Assembly: GCA_903871875.1 (NCBI GenBank)
Contig: CAIQIR010000019.1
Coordinates: forward strand, 1-64,000
Direction: 5' to 3'
Source of the DNA: an uncultured Schlesneria sp.
GTDB taxonomy: Bacteria; Planctomycetota; Planctomycetia; Planctomycetales; Planctomycetaceae
DNA: 64,000 nucleotides
The position numbers and the translations under genes are program-made. Shown piece by piece: positions 33,022-40,657 of the stretch. Within the stretch, counting starts at the first letter, position 1, and each line of letters starts with the position of its first letter. Under the pieces are notes generated by a model, which was not told the origin of the DNA, searched no databases, and was given only the letters and a program-made list of their open reading frames with translations.

Positions 33022-33175
33022 ATTCCCAGATGATTCACGTCGAATGTCGGGAGACTCAGGCTCATGTTGAAAACCAACTGCTTCGGACTCCGATTGCGGA
33101 AATGAGTATCTGGCAAACTCGTCGTCGATGGTCGCGGCCAGGTACGAACTGTTCCTCTACAGAAGTAGGACGCTG

Positions 33176-34660
33176 ATGCCGAATACGACATCCGATAGTA
33201 CGGTCGCTCCGAAGACGTTGCCTCGGGTGCTTGGACTGTTCGATGCGACGGCGATGGTGGTCGGTTCAATTATTGGGTCAGGCATCTTTCTGAAAGTTGG
33301 CAACGTCGATCAGGCATTGATGGCCTGGGGTTTTCTTCCCATCATCAGTGTCTGGGTGTTTGTCGGGGTTGTCACGTTGTGTGGATCGCTGGCGCTGGCG
33401 GAACTGGCTGCGATGTATCCGCATGCGGGTGGTCCGTATCTCTACTTGCGCGAAGCCTATGGACGTCTGTTTGCGTTCCTATGGGGGTGGACAGAATTCT
33501 GGGTGGTTCGTTCGGGTTCGGTCGGAGCATTAGCATGTGCGACTGTGATTTATCTGGACGAGTTTTTGCGACCGTCATTGGACGTGGTGTCACCTCTCGG
33601 CCATCTTGGTCAAATGATTGTCGCATTGACAATCGTGATCGGCTTGTCAGTGATCAACATGATCAGCACGCGGTGGGGGGCCGTGGTGCAGAACGTCGCG
33701 ACGGTTGCCAAGTTAGGCTTCCTGGGATTGCTGATTGGACTTCCGTTGATCATGGGGAAGATCGATGTTGATCATCTTTTTCCCCTTTGGATCCCTTCGC
33801 CGGAAACAATGATTGTCACCCCCGTGGTTGATGAGGTCACGTCACAAGCACCTCTGGCAGGAGCTCCCAGGTCGCTGTTTGCCGCGTTGGGTGTGGCACT
33901 GATTGCGGTGTTTTGGCCCTACGATGGTTGGATCAACATTGCTCCGGTCGCAGAAGAAATCCGTGAACCGCAGTTTAACATTCCCCGGGCGTTGGCCTTG
34001 GGCATTGGGATCGTCGCACTGGTCTATATCGGGGCGAATGTCAGTTATCACCTCGTTCTATCGATGCCCGCGGTCGCGAAGAGTGATCGATTGGCCGCCG
34101 ATGTGTTTCGTGTCTTGTTTGGCGAGTGGGGTAGCAAGTTTGCCGCATTGGGGGTGTTGTGTTCGACTTTTGGAGCTGCCAACTCGAATCTCATTGCTGG
34201 TCCGCGAATCTACTTTGCGGCGGCTCGCGATGGTCTGGTTCCCCATTTCATTCAGCGGATACACCCCCAGTTTCATACGCCTTCAAATTCGATTTTGATT
34301 CAGGGGGTTTGGACTTCCATTCTGATCATCGTCTTCTATTCGATCAGCCAGAACCCCAAGCAGGTCTTTGATTTGATTACCGACGCCGTCATTTGTGCAG
34401 GATTGATTTTTTATAGTCTGGCGGTTGGTGCCGTCTATGTGTTGCGACGGAAACTCCCGAACGCGGATCGGCCCTACAAAACCTGGGGGTATCCCTGGAC
34501 ACCTGCCTTGCTGATCGTGACCTACGGCATCGCTTTCGTCGGAACTCTGGTTGATCAAACGGATAAGATCGCCTGGGTGCTCGCATTGATTGCTGCCGGC
34601 GTCGTCTACTATGTGATTGTGACACGATCAACGAATCAGGATAAACTCGTTCGAGTTTAA
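33176..34660 (+). CDS. APC-family amino-acid permease
   Basis: About 494 residues from ATG 33176, preceded by AGTAGGA. The first helix carries the family motif VGSIIGSGIFLKVG, whose unwound GSGIF binds the substrate amine. About 12 helices can be counted, and helix 6 lies around FWPYDGWINIAPVAEEIREP, as in the LAT/YfnA-type APC subgroup. It imports or exchanges amino acids; the specific substrate is not readable. Its last 33 bases overlap the end of the convergent PSCyt2-PSD1 gene. Confidence 0.92.
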   Translation: MPNTTSDSTVAPKTLPRVLGLFDATAMVVGSIIGSGIFLKVGNVDQALMAWGFLPIISVWVFVGVVTLCGSLALAELAAMYPHAGGPYLYLREAYGRLFAFLWGWTEFWVVRSGSVGALACATVIYLDEFLRPSLDVVSPLGHLGQMIVALTIVIGLSVINMISTRWGAVVQNVATVAKLGFLGLLIGLPLIMGKIDVDHLFPLWIPSPETMIVTPVVDEVTSQAPLAGAPRSLFAALGVALIAVFWPYDGWINIAPVAEEIREPQFNIPRALALGIGIVALVYIGANVSYHLVLSMPAVAKSDRLAADVFRVLFGEWGSKFAALGVLCSTFGAANSNLIAGPRIYFAAARDGLVPHFIQRIHPQFHTPSNSILIQGVWTSILIIVFYSISQNPKQVFDLITDAVICAGLIFYSLAVGAVYVLRRKLPNADRPYKTWGYPWTPALLIVTYGIAFVGTLVDQTDKIAWVLALIAAGVVYYVIVTRSTNQDKLVRV

Positions 34661-36733
34661 AAAAGCCCAATAGAGATCCTGGTACGCCTCAGGGGAATAA
34701 CTTGATTGGCGTACATCCGTCCGGGCATGGGGAAGCAGGTTTTTCAGTCGAGACATCTCGTTGGCGTCAGGTGGTCGGGAGAACGACGCCAGCAAGAGAG
34801 TTCGTAGCTTTTCGTTGTCAGAAGTTCTCCGGCGGATGATTTCCCCCAAAAAACTTCCGGCGGAAAGGTCAAGTGCCTTACCGATCAGCGGGCCATTCAT
34901 TAGGGAAAGTGCATTTCCAATCGAGCCGTCGAACGACATTGTTTCGTCATTGTCGTCCGTGTGAAATGTGACGATAAATTGCTGCAGCCATTGCTGCCGG
35001 ATTTGTTCTGCCTGTGCCCAGTCGACCGCTCCGACTTGATGGGCCTTGGTCGCGGTGAGTAATGAATCATAAGTCTGCTCGGCCGACATCGATTTGACAT
35101 ACATCCGGCTGAACGACGGCAGCTCACCTTTCACAGGATCGTCCGACTGATTGGAGTCGGAGAAACGGCTGCTGAGGTGATAAGGCTCTGAAAGGCAAAT
35201 CCAGCGGATCAGTTGTTTGATGTCATAGTCATTTCGAATGAACTGTTGTGACAGCATGGCCAGCAGTTCAGGATGGCTGACCGGTTGGTGTGATCCCATA
35301 TCGTCGACGCTGCGTGTAAATCCCGCGCCGAAAAAGTGCTCCCACATTCGGTTGATGAAAGCGGCGGCCAGTTGTGGTTGTTCCCCTGCGGTCATGAGTC
35401 GAGCCAATTCACGTCGGCGATTTGTGTCAGGGCTTGGGTCAATCGCATGGCCATTAAATCGGGGATAGGCCACGCGCATCAATCCATTTTGGGTTTCAAA
35501 GTAGATCGGCCCTCCGGCATCTTGCGTGATGAGTTCGGTGATTGCGCGTGACAAGTGTTCGGGCCGGGAATCAGGTGACAATCGAGAAACGGACGCCGTT
35601 TGCTGGAAAAAACTGTTGAGTTCCCAAAAGGCGAGTTGCTTTGTCTCGTCGAACGGATTGTTATGACATTGATTGCACTGAACTTGTCGGCCCAGAAATA
35701 ACTTTGCCGCAACCGCGGTAGCCGGAGTGGCATCATTGTTCAGATGGGCAATTAGAAAATTCGTGGCTCCGTTCTCGCTATTGTTTCCTTCGGCCGAAAT
35801 CAAATCGGCCACAATCTGATTCCACGGTCGATTTCTTGCAAAGCTCAGCCGCAGGAACTTTTGAAATGCTTCACGGTCGACTTGGGGATGCGACGAACGG
35901 CCGATCAATAAATTGGTCCATTTGATTGTGAAATTCCGCACGTACCCCGAATCATCTAGCAATTGGTCGATCAATTTCGCACGCTTTTCCGCGTGCGGAT
36001 CGGTTAAGAATGCTTCCGCTTCAGGGACCGTGGGGATACGTCCACTCAGATTCAAGTAGGATCGTCGTAACCATTCTGAATCGTCGGCTATGGCGGAAGG
36101 GTGAAGGCCGGTCGCCGTCCATCGCGACTGAATCTCTAAGTTAATTTGAGTCACGATTTCTGATGTTGAGAGCGTCGGGATCGAAGGCCGCGTCTCGCTG
36201 GGATCCTGAACATCTGTTTGTGGTTCCGTGGCAGAAACATGAGTTGCGGGATTCTCTGAATCCTCTAAGGAAATCGGTGGGCCATAACTGCGCGGCGCCG
36301 ATCGTCGAACGGGATTTGTAACGGTGGTCCCGACAGCATGACCAGATTCATGGTTTGCGGTGACCGCGACAGTCGATTTCATGGGGCGAGATACTTGCCA
36401 TGCAACAAACATGGCCGAGATCAGACAGACTGTCACCGCTCCGACCATCTGAGGAACGTTCCGTGGGGAGGTACGATTCACTGGCTGGTATTCCCGTTTT
36501 TGTGAGAAATCAGTGAGTGAATCGGATGAAAGAGGCTCGGGAACTCCAACTCCCGCGGTATTCCAATAGAGAGTCCCATGCAGATCGAGATAGGCGAGAT
36601 ATCTCCAACGAGCTTCTGGCGACGAGATAATCAATTGCTCCAAGCGGGGCGCTTCATCGGCCGAAAGACGCTCCTCACAAAGCGCTTCGAGCAATCCGTC
36701 CAGATCTTCCGGAATGTGATTGGTTCGCGTCAT
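34628..36733 (-). CDS. Anti-sigma-like N-terminus fused to PSCyt2-PSD1 (DUF1549-DUF1553)
   Basis: 701 residues from ATG 36733, which follows GAGG and overlaps the ECF sigma stop as ATGA; a longer upstream frame runs back through the sigma gene. Residues 8-58 (LDGLLEALCEERLSADEAPR, then SSPEARWRYLAYLDLH) match the cytoplasmic segment of planctomycete FecR-type anti-sigma proteins. One membrane helix lies at about 96-114 (VGAVTVCLISAMFVAW), then a disordered linker, then PSCyt2 with the CxxCH motif CNQCH at 353-357, then PSD1 to the C-terminus. The architecture suggests a membrane anti-sigma factor whose outer domain is a cytochrome-like enzyme module. The last 33 bases overlap the permease gene tail to tail. 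Confidence 0.88.
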   Translation of the reverse strand: MTRTNHIPEDLDGLLEALCEERLSADEAPRLEQLIISSPEARWRYLAYLDLHGTLYWNTAGVGVPEPLSSDSLTDFSQKREYQPVNRTSPRNVPQMVGAVTVCLISAMFVAWQVSRPMKSTVAVTANHESGHAVGTTVTNPVRRSAPRSYGPPISLEDSENPATHVSATEPQTDVQDPSETRPSIPTLSTSEIVTQINLEIQSRWTATGLHPSAIADDSEWLRRSYLNLSGRIPTVPEAEAFLTDPHAEKRAKLIDQLLDDSGYVRNFTIKWTNLLIGRSSHPQVDREAFQKFLRLSFARNRPWNQIVADLISAEGNNSENGATNFLIAHLNNDATPATAVAAKLFLGRQVQCNQCHNNPFDETKQLAFWELNSFFQQTASVSRLSPDSRPEHLSRAITELITQDAGGPIYFETQNGLMRVAYPRFNGHAIDPSPDTNRRRELARLMTAGEQPQLAAAFINRMWEHFFGAGFTRSVDDMGSHQPVSHPELLAMLSQQFIRNDYDIKQLIRWICLSEPYHLSSRFSDSNQSDDPVKGELPSFSRMYVKSMSAEQTYDSLLTATKAHQVGAVDWAQAEQIRQQWLQQFIVTFHTDDNDETMSFDGSIGNALSLMNGPLIGKALDLSAGSFLGEIIRRRTSDNEKLRTLLLASFSRPPDANEMSRLKNLLPHARTDVRQSSYSPEAYQDLYWAFLNSNEFILIR

Positions 36734-37290
36734 GACGGCACCTCGGGTGTGATCTTCCGTTCGATGCATTCCATTAGCGTCCGGCGGATGCGGCTCAGCG
36801 ACTGATACACCGAATTTGCTGGTCGGCCAATTTGCTCGGCGAGATGTTTCCCACGATTGCCGGGGGCATAGCGCTGCTGAATTAACTCGCGATCTTTGGG
36901 CCGCAACTTTTGCAGGCAATCTGCGAGCGCTGTTCGCCGCGCTTCCAAGGATTCAGATCGCTCAAGAGCAGTTTCTGCGATGGCTTGCAGGAATTCATCA
37001 CTGAACAGAACTTTCTCACGCCGTTTTTGGGTTCGAAATTTCATTACTTCGAAATTGGCAATTTGACTGACCCAGGCCAGAAAGTTTGTTCCCGGTTGGA
37101 ACCGCGAAAACTTACTCCAGACGACCACGTTTGTTTCTTGCAGGATCTCTTCTGCTTCGACCGGATTGGGAACTTGCGACAAGATGTACAAGAACAGCCG
37201 CCGTTGATGGTGCGTGAACAACCGCACGAATTCGACGCTGGGCGAATTTCCCGACGGTTTTCCGGCAGAGTCGTCGATGTAGTGTTCCAT
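36730..37290 (-). CDS. ECF RNA polymerase sigma factor, planctomycete type
   Basis: About 186 residues from ATG 37290; the frame stays open upstream but that sequence is Arg/Trp-rich and unlike a sigma factor. Region 2 is seen in FVRLFTHHQRRLFLYILSQV, AEEILQETNVVVWSKFSRF and NFLAWVSQIANFEVMKFR. Region 4 is CLQKLRPKDRELIQQRYA with RPANSVYQSLSRIRRTL. It resembles the Rhodopirellula/Verrucomicrobium-type sigma-70 family. It lies 32 bases after the DUF1501 gene, and its TGA overlaps the ATG of the anti-sigma-like fusion, which points to a regulatory pair. Confidence 0.92.
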   Translation of the reverse strand: MEHYIDDSAGKPSGNSPSVEFVRLFTHHQRRLFLYILSQVPNPVEAEEILQETNVVVWSKFSRFQPGTNFLAWVSQIANFEVMKFRTQKRREKVLFSDEFLQAIAETALERSESLEARRTALADCLQKLRPKDRELIQQRYAPGNRGKHLAEQIGRPANSVYQSLSRIRRTLMECIERKITPEVPS

Positions 37291-37322
37291 CAAGGAAGTC
37301 CGAGGACAGAAAGCGAAGATGC

Positions 37323-38627
37323 TTAGCCGATCAGTTCCTGAATCGCGGTGCCACCATTTGCCAGCTTCATTGGTCGACCGTTTTTCGATTTGTGAACTGT
37401 GTCGAGAGGGATGCCCAATGCATGTGCGACTGTCGCCCAGACATCGCCAGGTTGATAAATCTTGCTGCTGACAACCGACAGCCCGTCTTTGTCCGTTTCG
37501 CCGATGGTCAAGCCTCCTTTCAGGCCACCGCCGCCCAACATGACAGACCAACTGTTCGCAAAATGGTCGCGACCCACATCTTGGTTGATTCGCGGAGTCC
37601 GCGCGAACTCACCCATCCAGACCAGTACAACATCGTTAAACATTCCTCGCTGCTTCAAGTCGGCGGTCAGTGCCGCGATACCGGCATCGAGTGCTGGCAG
37701 TCGTTGATTCTTCAGGGTGTCAAACACGTTGGCGTGCAAGTCCCAGCCACCAAAGTCCACTTCAACAAACGGCACCCCCGCTTCGACGAGACGTCGGGCC
37801 ATCAGCAGGCTGCGACCAAACTGACCGCCGCCACCCATTGCACCGCCTCGAGCCGGGTTGCCTGAATAGGCCTCGAGAACTTCTTTCTTTTCCTGGTCGA
37901 TCTTGAATGCTTCCATTTGCTTGGATTGCATCAGGTTGACTGCTTTTTTGTAGATATCCCGGTGGGCCGAGCCAAAGTCGCCACGATCCGATCGAATGAA
38001 ATTCTCTTCCACGGTGGCCAGCATCGACAGGCGTTGGTTCAGACGCTCTGAACTGACGTCGCCGAGTTCCGTATTGTTAATTCGGCCGCTCGCATCGACC
38101 AAAAACGGTGCGTGGGTCATGCCCAGATATCCCGGGCTGAGCCCTCCTCCACCGATGGAGATAAACGAAGGAATTTCAAGATTGTTCCGCTTTGACGCTA
38201 ATTCATAGCTGACAACGGATCCAAATGCGGGATGCACAACCGTCGGATTCGGGATGAAGGTGGTATGCATGTAGTATCGCCCACGGCCGTGATCAGCTTC
38301 GCGGGTGCTCATCGATCGAATCAGTGACAGGTTGTCCATGACCGCTGCCGTCTTCGGCATCTGATCGCTGATCTGCATACTTCCCCGAGTCTTGATGGGC
38401 TTGAATTCGCCGCCATTCTTAGACTCGGGTTTCAGATCCCAGATATCGATTGTCGGTGGACCACCGCTCATCCACATCAGAATACAGGCCTTCTGTTTTT
38501 TGTTCAGTTCGGCGGCGTGAGCCTTCACATGGGAAATAAAATTCATCGCGGGAATTGTCGCGGCACTGGCGGCCAAATGCGTCACGAAATGTCGCCGCGA
38601 CATACCGAATGGTGTGATGAGACTCAT
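37323..38627 (-). CDS. DUF1501 protein, Tat-exported
   Basis: About 434 residues. Two adjacent ATGs (38630, 38627) follow GAGGAG; the second has the better spacing. The Tat-like signal [20 protein letters not shown] is present. The body is the DUF1501 family, which has an alkaline-phosphatase/sulfatase-like fold: [19 protein letters not shown], the [20 protein letters not shown] segment, and [17 protein letters not shown] with [13 protein letters not shown]1501 genes normally sit next to PSCyt2-PSD1 genes, as here (33 bases downstream of one). The substrate and role are unknown. Confidence 0.92.
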
Positions 38628-38660
38628 CATCCGCTCCTCAGTGTTTCTGCTGCTCAGCCG

Positions 38661-40319
38661 TCAGTGGTTGAAAATGAACTCATTGCAATTGAGTAACGCC
38701 CAGAAAAGATCTTGAAAGACCGTTAAGGGGTCTGCATTTTCATTGAGAAATTTCTGGGTTGCCACCAGTTCTGGTTTGGTAGGCTGTCGGCCCAAGGCGG
38801 TCAGATACAGTCGTTGGATCTTCTGCACGTCGTTTCCTCGACCCGCCAGCAGGTCGTGTAGATGACTGCCCGGTTTGACGCTGACTGCGTCACGAACTAA
38901 CGCACCGTTCATCATCGTGAGGGCTTGTGGAATTGTGCCGTCAAATGACGTGGATTCACTGCCGTCGTCCGTACCGAAAGTTCGTACGAATTGCTCAAGC
39001 CATTCTTGTCGTTTGCTTTCCGATTTCTCCCAACCCGATCGGCCCGACTTGTGAGCGTTCGTGGCGACGATTAACGAGTCATACAATTGTTCGGCGGTCA
39101 GCGGTTTCACATAGACGTGTGTGAACAGCGCTGTCTCGCCAATCGCGGGGTTGTCTTGTGAATTCTTTTTCGCGCTACGGCTGGTCAAATTGTAGGGCTC
39201 GCTCAAGGCGATCCAGCGGATTAGTTGTTTGCCGTCATATCCACTTTTCACGAATTCATCGGACAATCGATCAAATAGCGCGGGATGCGTCACTGGCACA
39301 TGCGTGCTGATATCGTCGATCGGATTGGTAAATCCGAATCCAAAGAAATGAGCCCAGGTTCGATTGACGTATGCGACAGCGATCATTGGCCGGTCGCCCA
39401 ACGTCATCAAACGTGCCAATTCCTGACGGCGATTGGTCGAGCTGTCCGGTTCAACTTGAGTGCCGAGGTAATTGGGATAGGCCACCTTCATCAAGCCATT
39501 TCGCTTTTCAAAGTAAACCGGACCCGAGAATTCGCGTTGAACAATCTCGGAATAGTCATCAACCATGCGCCCTGCTTTCGTGTCAAATCTGCGATGGTCG
39601 ACCTTTCCGGTCTGGCGAAAGAAGCTATTGAATTGCCAAAACTGATCTTGTTTCCAGTCGTTATAAGGATGATCGTGGCATTGGGTGCATTGAACTTGCA
39701 TCCCCATAAACAACCGCGTCGTTTTGGCGGTAACTTGCACGCCGTCATCCTGATCCTGCATTTGAGCCAGAAGGTAATTGGTGGCACCATTCTCTTCGTA
39801 GTGGCCTTCGGCTGTCACCAGATCAAACACGATCTCATTCCAGGGACGGTTCTTTCCGAATGCTTCTCGAAAGAATTTTTGCATCCCTTCACGGCTCACT
39901 CGGCGAGGTGTCTGCTGGCCGATGCAGAGATTGGTCCAAATCGTTGTCCAGTTGCGGGTATAACCGGGGTCGTCGATCAACCGTTCGACCAGCTTTTTTC
40001 GTTTGGACTTGTCTTTATCGGCGAGAAATTTCTCGACGTCCTCAAGCGAAGGAATATGGCCGACAACATCCAAGTAGACGCGTCGCATCCATTCGGCGTC
40101 GTCAGCGACGGCAGAAGGCTCAACCTCGTTGTCCTTCCATGTCTGGCGAATCTGTGTATTGATTTCTTCAATGATCGCATCGGCTGGGCTGGGGCGAGAA
40201 TTCTCTCCTGTCGCGCGAGCGAACGTTGACCATACGAATCCGTCAAGCAATAGCATCAGAGTGATTGCCGCCAAGCGAATCCCGAAGGCGAGACTCGTTC
40301 GTTTCAGACTCCGCGACAT
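38661..40319 (-). CDS. PSCyt2-PSD1 (DUF1549-DUF1553) secreted protein
   Basis: 552 residues. A signal peptide (FGIRLAAITLMLLLDGFVWS) precedes PSCyt2 with DDAEWMRRVYLDVVGHIPSL, and a CxxCH motif (CTQCH, residues 211-215) in VQCTQCHDHPYNDWKQDQFW that could bind haem c. PSD1 follows with NRTWAHFFGFGFTNPIDDIS and ends in LLNCNEFIFNH. It has no N-terminal PSCyt1 cytochrome domain. ATG 40319 follows GAGGAG. It is the first gene of the DUF1501/ECF/anti-sigma operon and a paralogue of the last gene. Its biochemical role is unknown. Confidence 0.92.
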   Translation of the reverse strand: MSRSLKRTSLAFGIRLAAITLMLLLDGFVWSTFARATGENSRPSPADAIIEEINTQIRQTWKDNEVEPSAVADDAEWMRRVYLDVVGHIPSLEDVEKFLADKDKSKRKKLVERLIDDPGYTRNWTTIWTNLCIGQQTPRRVSREGMQKFFREAFGKNRPWNEIVFDLVTAEGHYEENGATNYLLAQMQDQDDGVQVTAKTTRLFMGMQVQCTQCHDHPYNDWKQDQFWQFNSFFRQTGKVDHRRFDTKAGRMVDDYSEIVQREFSGPVYFEKRNGLMKVAYPNYLGTQVEPDSSTNRRQELARLMTLGDRPMIAVAYVNRTWAHFFGFGFTNPIDDISTHVPVTHPALFDRLSDEFVKSGYDGKQLIRWIALSEPYNLTSRSAKKNSQDNPAIGETALFTHVYVKPLTAEQLYDSLIVATNAHKSGRSGWEKSESKRQEWLEQFVRTFGTDDGSESTSFDGTIPQALTMMNGALVRDAVSVKPGSHLHDLLAGRGNDVQKIQRLYLTALGRQPTKPELVATQKFLNENADPLTVFQDLFWALLNCNEFIFNH

Positions 40320-40657
40320 GGCCTAAACTCCTCAGTGCCGTCCAGTCAAAACACGCCAGTCAGGGGAGGGCTCACGTTTCGGCGCATCTTTCCATAGAAT
40401 AACAGCGGATTACTCGAAAACGTTCGTTTAAATAACGAAGAAAGTCGAGCAGACAACACGGCAATGCGTCGCAACCGTTGATTTGATCAAGGATTATGGC
40501 CAATCTTGTGCTGACTCGCGAGCCGGAACGGACTTTCCAAATTGAAGGAGACCAAAAATCTGCACGATTCGTAATCGCGAGGTCTAGGAAAGAGTAAATG
40601 TGAGAACGATGCTGGCGACTCGGTCCCTGCAGGTGCATCTAAGCCGAGTGAACACCA
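40320..40657. other. 338-bp gap upstream of the PSCyt2 operon, no gene seen
   Basis: The operon promoter should lie here on the minus strand; the A/T-rich part is around 40395-40440. No clear -35/-10 or ECF-type GGAAC element was found. A minus-strand frame of about 88 codons has no recognisable feature. Confidence 0.5.

Follow-up and report, generated by a model that had tools for sequence, protein, structure and literature searches.

In the 64,000-nucleotide stretch of contig CAIQIR010000019.1 from an uncultured Schlesneria sp. (hereafter the window, meaning the whole stretch analysed), four genes, named A, B, C and D here, form one tight minus-strand unit (Table 1). They encode an unfused PSCyt2-PSD1 protein, a DUF1501 protein, an extracytoplasmic function (ECF) sigma factor and a second PSCyt2-PSD1 protein, which begins with a predicted anti-sigma domain (ASD) and a membrane helix and is the main subject of this report. 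A preliminary description of this DNA had proposed the same four genes, and the open reading frames of the window, together with Pfam and TIGR02989, confirm them. The ATG of D (36733-36731) overlaps the TGA of C, as had also been described, and the two genes share the four bases ATGA.

Table 1. Features of the four-gene unit and of the region ahead of it
Feature	Coordinates	Strand	Basis
Predicted ECF promoter	40396-40426	-	Motif conserved across species
A, unfused PSCyt2-PSD1 protein, 552 aa	38661-40319	-	Pfam PF07583, PF07587
B, DUF1501 protein, 435 aa	37323-38630	-	Pfam PF07394, E 1.3e-97
C, ECF sigma factor, 186 aa	36730-37290	-	NCBIfam TIGR02989
D, predicted membrane-anchored anti-sigma/PSCyt2-PSD1 fusion, 701 aa	34628-36733	-	Open reading frames, Pfam, hydropathy, alignment A2, AlphaFold2
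Class I anti-sigma-like three-helix domain, D residues 10-60	36554-36706	-	AlphaFold2 and structure comparison
Single membrane helix, D residues 96-114	36392-36448	-	Hydropathy; helix also in the AlphaFold2 model
PSCyt2 domain, D residues 197-379	35597-36145	-	Pfam PF07583, E 3.6e-38, 132.1 bits
CNQCH, c-type haem attachment motif, D residues 353-357	35663-35677	-	Sequence; both cysteines and the histidine invariant in A2
PSD1 domain, D residues 439-666	34736-35419	-	Pfam PF07587, E 3.2e-35, 122.1 bits

Protein A contains the motif CTQCH and is probably exported, judging by eye from its hydrophobic N-terminus, and B carries SRRHF at its N-terminus, which we take to be a Tat-like motif. The sigma factor C passes the TIGR02989 threshold (167.7 bits against a cut-off of 124.55); with Pfam it matches sigma regions 2 and 4 only, the former above cut-off and the latter slightly below. 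The Schlesneria genome of the window holds 65 PSCyt2 matches, and the function of PSCyt2/PSD1 proteins is given as unknown in the available text of one source (PMC5615132).

A search with D in 59 genomes, its own included, returned matches in all of them, as would be expected of so common a domain family, and the matches that extend to the N-terminus came mainly from the window's own family. In 25 loci fetched from related genomes, A, B, C and D follow one another in this order, with D cut by the contig end in two. A scan of named genomes with an alignment of the sigma factor gave 148 ECF relatives, from which 80 loci with this sigma factor were kept: 56 have A-B-C-D, 16 B-C-D, six C-D, one A-B-C and one B-C (the 56 and the 25 fetched loci overlap in part). 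D adjoins the sigma gene on its downstream side in 78 of the 80. In the other two, D is interrupted by a stop codon (L164) or the contig ends (L184), and contig ends also cut five of the 16 B-C-D loci and most of the six C-D loci. The start codons of 11 D genes were assigned by hand. Genera in the record titles include Schlesneria, Gimesia and Planctomicrobium, and Thalassoglobus neptunius KOR42 is also represented; in some genomes of the same family, A and B are not followed by C-D. This recurrence of order and fusion, in 25 fetched and 56 named loci, is beyond chance. It rules out the possibility, raised in the preliminary description, that the fusion occurs only here with no conserved gene order.

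The N-terminal segment of protein D

Protein D is made up, in order, of an N-domain of about 60 residues, a variable linker, a hydrophobic helix, a second variable linker, PSCyt2 and PSD1; PF07583 and PF07587 were both matched in all 28 proteins of an alignment of D proteins (A2). The start of D had been called FecR/anti-sigma-like in the preliminary description, a reading by eye, since no Pfam family lies above cut-off in D residues 1-190. Profile, synteny, fold and hydropathy now agree on an anti-sigma-like segment followed by a membrane helix. Pfam likewise gave nothing meaningful for the N-domains of 27 D orthologs, and the FecR domain PF04773 had no match in D (it was above cut-off at L224 and below it at L225).

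In the AlphaFold2 model, the N-domain has helices at residues 11-19, 27-37 and 39-59, with pLDDT averaging about 80-90 across most of the domain; the C-terminal part of D is mostly well predicted and the linkers have a pLDDT <50. When the isolated N-domain model was compared with 27 chains by VIA-align, the top five were RsiW, MucA (twice), RslA and ChrR. SigW-RsiW, AlgU-MucA and SigE-ChrR are class I anti-sigma systems, with which D would share a three-helix cytoplasmic domain. By sequence, the ASD of D showed no similarity to RseA, the only classical anti-sigma factor so compared. A search of PDB sequences with the N-domain profile returned 17 sequences at E 0.33-2.7, with no anti-sigma factor among them, and Foldseek gave no match of the whole D model to the PDB at E <=0.001. 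The whole model bears a weak resemblance to linker domains of the phycobilisome (3pru, 3nph), at Foldseek probabilities of 0.20-0.44 and E values no better than 1.8.

In 24 genomes hand-picked among those with strong matches, hits of the N-domain profile adjoin ECF genes, and an ECF neighbour was present at 30 of 30 examined loci. An ASD of this kind is also fused to FecR and Laminin_G_3 outer parts, and elsewhere in the window's own genome it is joined to a FecR domain. Genome G399, which is of another family and 4.3 Mb in size, holds 30 matches to it. From the position of the profile matches beside ECF genes and from the class I-like fold, D is very probably the anti-sigma factor for the adjacent C, as had been suggested. 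Were the segment a plain membrane anchor, with C regulated otherwise, the lack of a Pfam match and of anti-sigma factors among the PDB sequence matches would be accounted for; however, the predicted fold, the 30 ECF neighbours and the occurrence of the same domain on other outer parts make this highly improbable.

A FecR-like role has more to be said for it, namely that the cytoplasmic domain of D is needed for sigma activity and that PSCyt2-PSD1 relays the signal of a partner in the outer membrane or periplasm. The alignment of the ASD with E. coli FecR falls, as expected, on the N-terminus of FecR, albeit at no better than E 0.11; the same ASD stands on a FecR domain elsewhere in the genome; and fecI and fecR of E. 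coli likewise overlap by four bases. In the available text of one study, ECF activity requires 59 residues at the N-terminus of FecR (PMC7406223). However, the four-gene unit is without a receptor gene, and the fold ranking is led by RsiW, MucA, RslA and ChrR (within the 27 chains compared). A co-activator of this kind is judged unlikely.

A promoter-like motif ahead of the operon

Upstream of A lies the sequence CGAACGTTTTCGAGTAATCCGCTGTTATTCT, in which CGAAC at -35 (40426-40422) is followed by an 18-base spacer, GTTA at -10 (40403-40400) and then TTCT; its first base is 107 bases ahead of the ATG of A. The pattern CGAA[CT]-N17/18-G[GT]TA was present in 35 of 53 upstream regions, whereas 200 simulated sets searched with the same two spacings averaged 0.3 and never exceeded 3; the spacings had been picked after the data were seen. 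Sites in the 80 loci fall mostly on the operon strand (67, vs 13 on the other). Removal of near-copies left 22 sites, and in the 18-base class a T stands two bases past the -10 box in 11 of 11, a position that lay outside the search pattern.

With a fixed search range, the motif was found ahead of A in 36 of 56 four-gene operons and was absent from 14 of 14 A-B operons of the same family without C-D (Fisher 7e-6). Eighteen A-B loci had been scanned for this count; L333 is in fact a four-gene operon (L359), and L351, L352 and L357, in which the motif is likewise absent, are cut downstream. At loci without A upstream, the motif lies close to the start of the B frame in nine of 11. Outside the family, it matched at one of 12 unfused PSCyt2 genes (L129). 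A wider regulon in the own genome was sought with one stricter pattern, whose sole match in the whole genome was the window site; the pattern was drawn partly from that site, so that only the absence elsewhere is informative.

According to the available text of one source, AAC at -35 and CGT at -10 are hallmarks of ECF promoters (PMC8103513), and the window motif has the AAC, as CGAAC. The operon is predicted to carry a two-box promoter of the ECF type that tracks the sigma/anti-sigma pair and is conserved ahead of the operon, as in autoregulated ECF operons. Presumably C would be the factor that uses it, and the sigma-controlled operon of the preliminary description is upheld to that extent.

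At the other end of the operon, a convergent frame on the plus strand (33128-34660), judged permease-like by eye, shares its last 33 bases with the end of D. Elsewhere in the same genome (L032; contig C58, 237533), another TIGR02989 sigma gene has a DUF1501-like frame upstream and a prepilin-like (DUF1559-like) protein downstream, both named by eye.

A second lineage of fused proteins

A second fused lineage, belonging to other families than the window's, was found in a search of 397 genomes with an aberrant D protein (L134), of which the best 30 loci were examined. Eighteen of these encode long proteins (D2, those of the window type being D1) with a different N-terminal segment of the DPLID..LLDEL...PPDLTARI kind, a membrane helix and CxxCH. 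An ECF gene lies directly upstream in all 18, and these ECF factors only distantly resemble C. The other 12 loci encode short unfused proteins, with no ECF gene upstream in 11 of 11 testable cases; the twelfth (L300), at a contig edge and within the D2 clade, was left out of the ECF count. The one D2 segment compared (L286) has no similarity to the first ASD, so that it is position and topology that suggest an anti-sigma role for it.

Upstream of the D2 sigma gene, all 18 loci have GAGTAC and 17 have the fuller GAGTAC-N16/17-CG[TC]T, of which the D2 loci hold no other copy. This box has CGT at -10 and no AAC at -35, and the motif of the first type was matched at one of the 18 loci (L291, about 400 bases ahead of the sigma frame). 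At L125, L126, L135 and L136, the unfused PSCyt2 gene is likewise preceded by GAGTAC with CGTT 16-17 bases further on. In part of the D2 lineage, the sigma factor may control an unfused PSCyt2/DUF1501 pair in trans.

At L135 (3298-5391), a further protein with CARCH and a weak match (24%) to the PSCyt2-PSD1 part of D is encoded directly behind an ECF gene and below a PSCyt2/DUF1501 pair, and is possibly a third variant. A D protein of the second type (L298:1341-3611) has a weak match to DUF1800 (E 5e-4, below cut-off). DUF1800 is a usual partner of DUF1501 in other bacteria, and from this weak match PSCyt2-PSD1 may be the counterpart of DUF1800 in planctomycetes.

In a tree of 78 hand-picked rows, D1 forms one clade (99) that is sister to A1, the unfused A proteins (97), and D2 groups (100) with unfused genes that do not belong to the window's family. 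A single origin of the fusion was rejected, as placing D1 and D2 in one clade was 183 log units worse (approximately unbiased test, p 1e-8, on 71 rows after removal of seven long-branch rows). The simple reading of these sequences would be two PSCyt2-PSD1 duplications, each then fused to an anti-sigma segment, and the arrangement probably arose twice.

Candidate signals and a proposed regulatory model

The preliminary description had proposed that a haem or substrate site of PSCyt2 might link transcription directly to a signal, and a c-type haem in the PSCyt2 part of D could report oxygen or redox state. All 28 D proteins of A2 and all 18 second-lineage proteins keep CxxCH. So do 73 of the 78 D frames from the named loci, and a contig end cuts four of the remaining five. 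Further, 75 columns are nearly fixed in a set of 37 unfused proteins; 44 of these columns, C353, C356 and H357 included, are kept at the level of at least 90% in both fused lineages. However, unfused proteins keep the motif equally, so that its conservation is not special to sensing; the D ortholog of L158 has lost both haem cysteines with the four-gene operon intact; and haem binding by D is itself a prediction. Haem-based sensing is therefore regarded as doubtful. Loss of the haem motif as the mark of a dead sensor was also considered and rejected, the motif being kept in nearly all D proteins.

Alternatively, D may sense its partner and not a small molecule; it would compete with A for B or for the substrate of A, and so gauge a shortage of B or an excess of substrate. 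The fused proteins are kin to unfused ones in two separate lineages, and similarity to the window's PSCyt2-PSD1 is lower for D than for A in 23 of 23 operons. Among the same 75 columns, 12 are relaxed in D1 and 20 in D2; the seven common to both (p 0.012), a modest overlap that was searched for after the tree had been seen, include R295, N362, R415, F590 and P606, which are near-invariant in unfused proteins. Columns may, however, be relaxed for any reason, and the interaction is hypothetical, so that partner sensing by itself also appears rather unlikely.

The reading that we consider likely is that D is a single-pass anti-sigma factor with a sensor derived from A, which releases C to transcribe A-B-C-D. 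D would span the inner membrane once, its cytoplasmic residues 10-60 would hold C, and the PSCyt2-PSD1 part in the periplasm, as a diverged copy of A, would act as the sensor. On meeting a signal that A or B would also handle, the sensor would free C, either through proteolysis of D or through a conformational change. The freed C would bind the CGAAC/GTTA promoter ahead of A, and the output would be more A and B, plus more of the switch itself (C-D). A wider proposal, put forward tentatively, is that planctomycete anti-sigma factors have twice, independently, gained their sensor from a duplicate of the regulated PSCyt2-PSD1 protein, the anti-sigma segment, ECF factor and promoter differing between the two cases. 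D would then be a decoy gauge that competes with A for the same ligand or for DUF1501 as partner and so determines how much A and B are made, within the operon in the window's family and, in the other lineage, in trans through a shared GAGTAC box.

Several observations weigh against these proposals. The four-gene operon at L359 is without the motif, and the -10 box of the window-type motif is not of the CGT type. Ahead of further unfused PSCyt2 genes, GAGTAC was found in four of 12 (one of the 12 having only 80 bases upstream) and in none of six from three further families, so that control in trans is not a general rule. A strict second-type pattern, with spacers too short for the boxes of the sigma genes, which it therefore missed, gave three matches in eight genomes from a single genus. 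By their coordinates, two of the three lie immediately ahead of the unfused PSCyt2 gene; the reversed control gave five matches in the same genomes, so that only the places of the matches are informative. Lastly, early gene conversion between A and D could mimic two origins.

The ECF/anti-sigma system with its proposed PSCyt2-PSD1 sensor is real and conserved, and its nearest analogues are the FecR-LamG and RsgI systems. Planctomycete TIGR02989 ECF factors with FecR-LamG proteins have the same ASD as D (profile comparison 93.6%, E 2e-7) and share with C-D the sigma family, the membrane helix and a sigma gene just upstream. Their periplasmic part consists of FecR and Laminin_G_3, in contrast to the PSCyt2-PSD1 of D, and no PSCyt2 or DUF1501 match was present in the 30 loci of this type examined. 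RsgI of Clostridium thermocellum has an intracellular domain, a transmembrane domain and an extracytoplasmic sensor, and SigI factors are usually autoregulated, according to the available text of PMC6056542; the title of a reference given there names glycoside hydrolases as components of RsgI-type biosensors. SigI-RsgI resembles D in having an anti-sigma factor with these three parts. However, SigI is Sigma-I and not an ECF factor by sequence, and RsgI sensors are polysaccharide modules, whereas the proposed sensor of D bears a haem motif and is paralogous to the neighbouring target gene.

In Rhodopirellula baltica, the ECF factor RB10049 was proposed as regulator of RB10051, a PSCyt2-PSD1 protein (Studholme et al. 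2004, as cited in PMC2754498), and heat, cold and salt each up-regulate RB10049 (PMC2754498). As in the window, an ECF factor is tied to PSCyt2-PSD1, and the available text of that source mentions no anti-sigma domain; RB10051 may, as a guess, be of the second fused type. In view of RsgI (PMC6056542) and R. baltica (PMC2754498), the earlier statement that no mechanism had been described for such an arrangement was too strong. In the library searched, no paper joined Planctomycetes, ECF sigma factors and DUF1501, and one joined Planctomycetes, ECF and DUF1549, which does not settle priority.

A switch with a predicted promoter offers a handle on the function of PSCyt2/PSD1 proteins, as these proteins are likely to act on whatever signal releases the sigma factor. 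It would also mean that the same regulatory idea has probably arisen twice from the same kind of protein.
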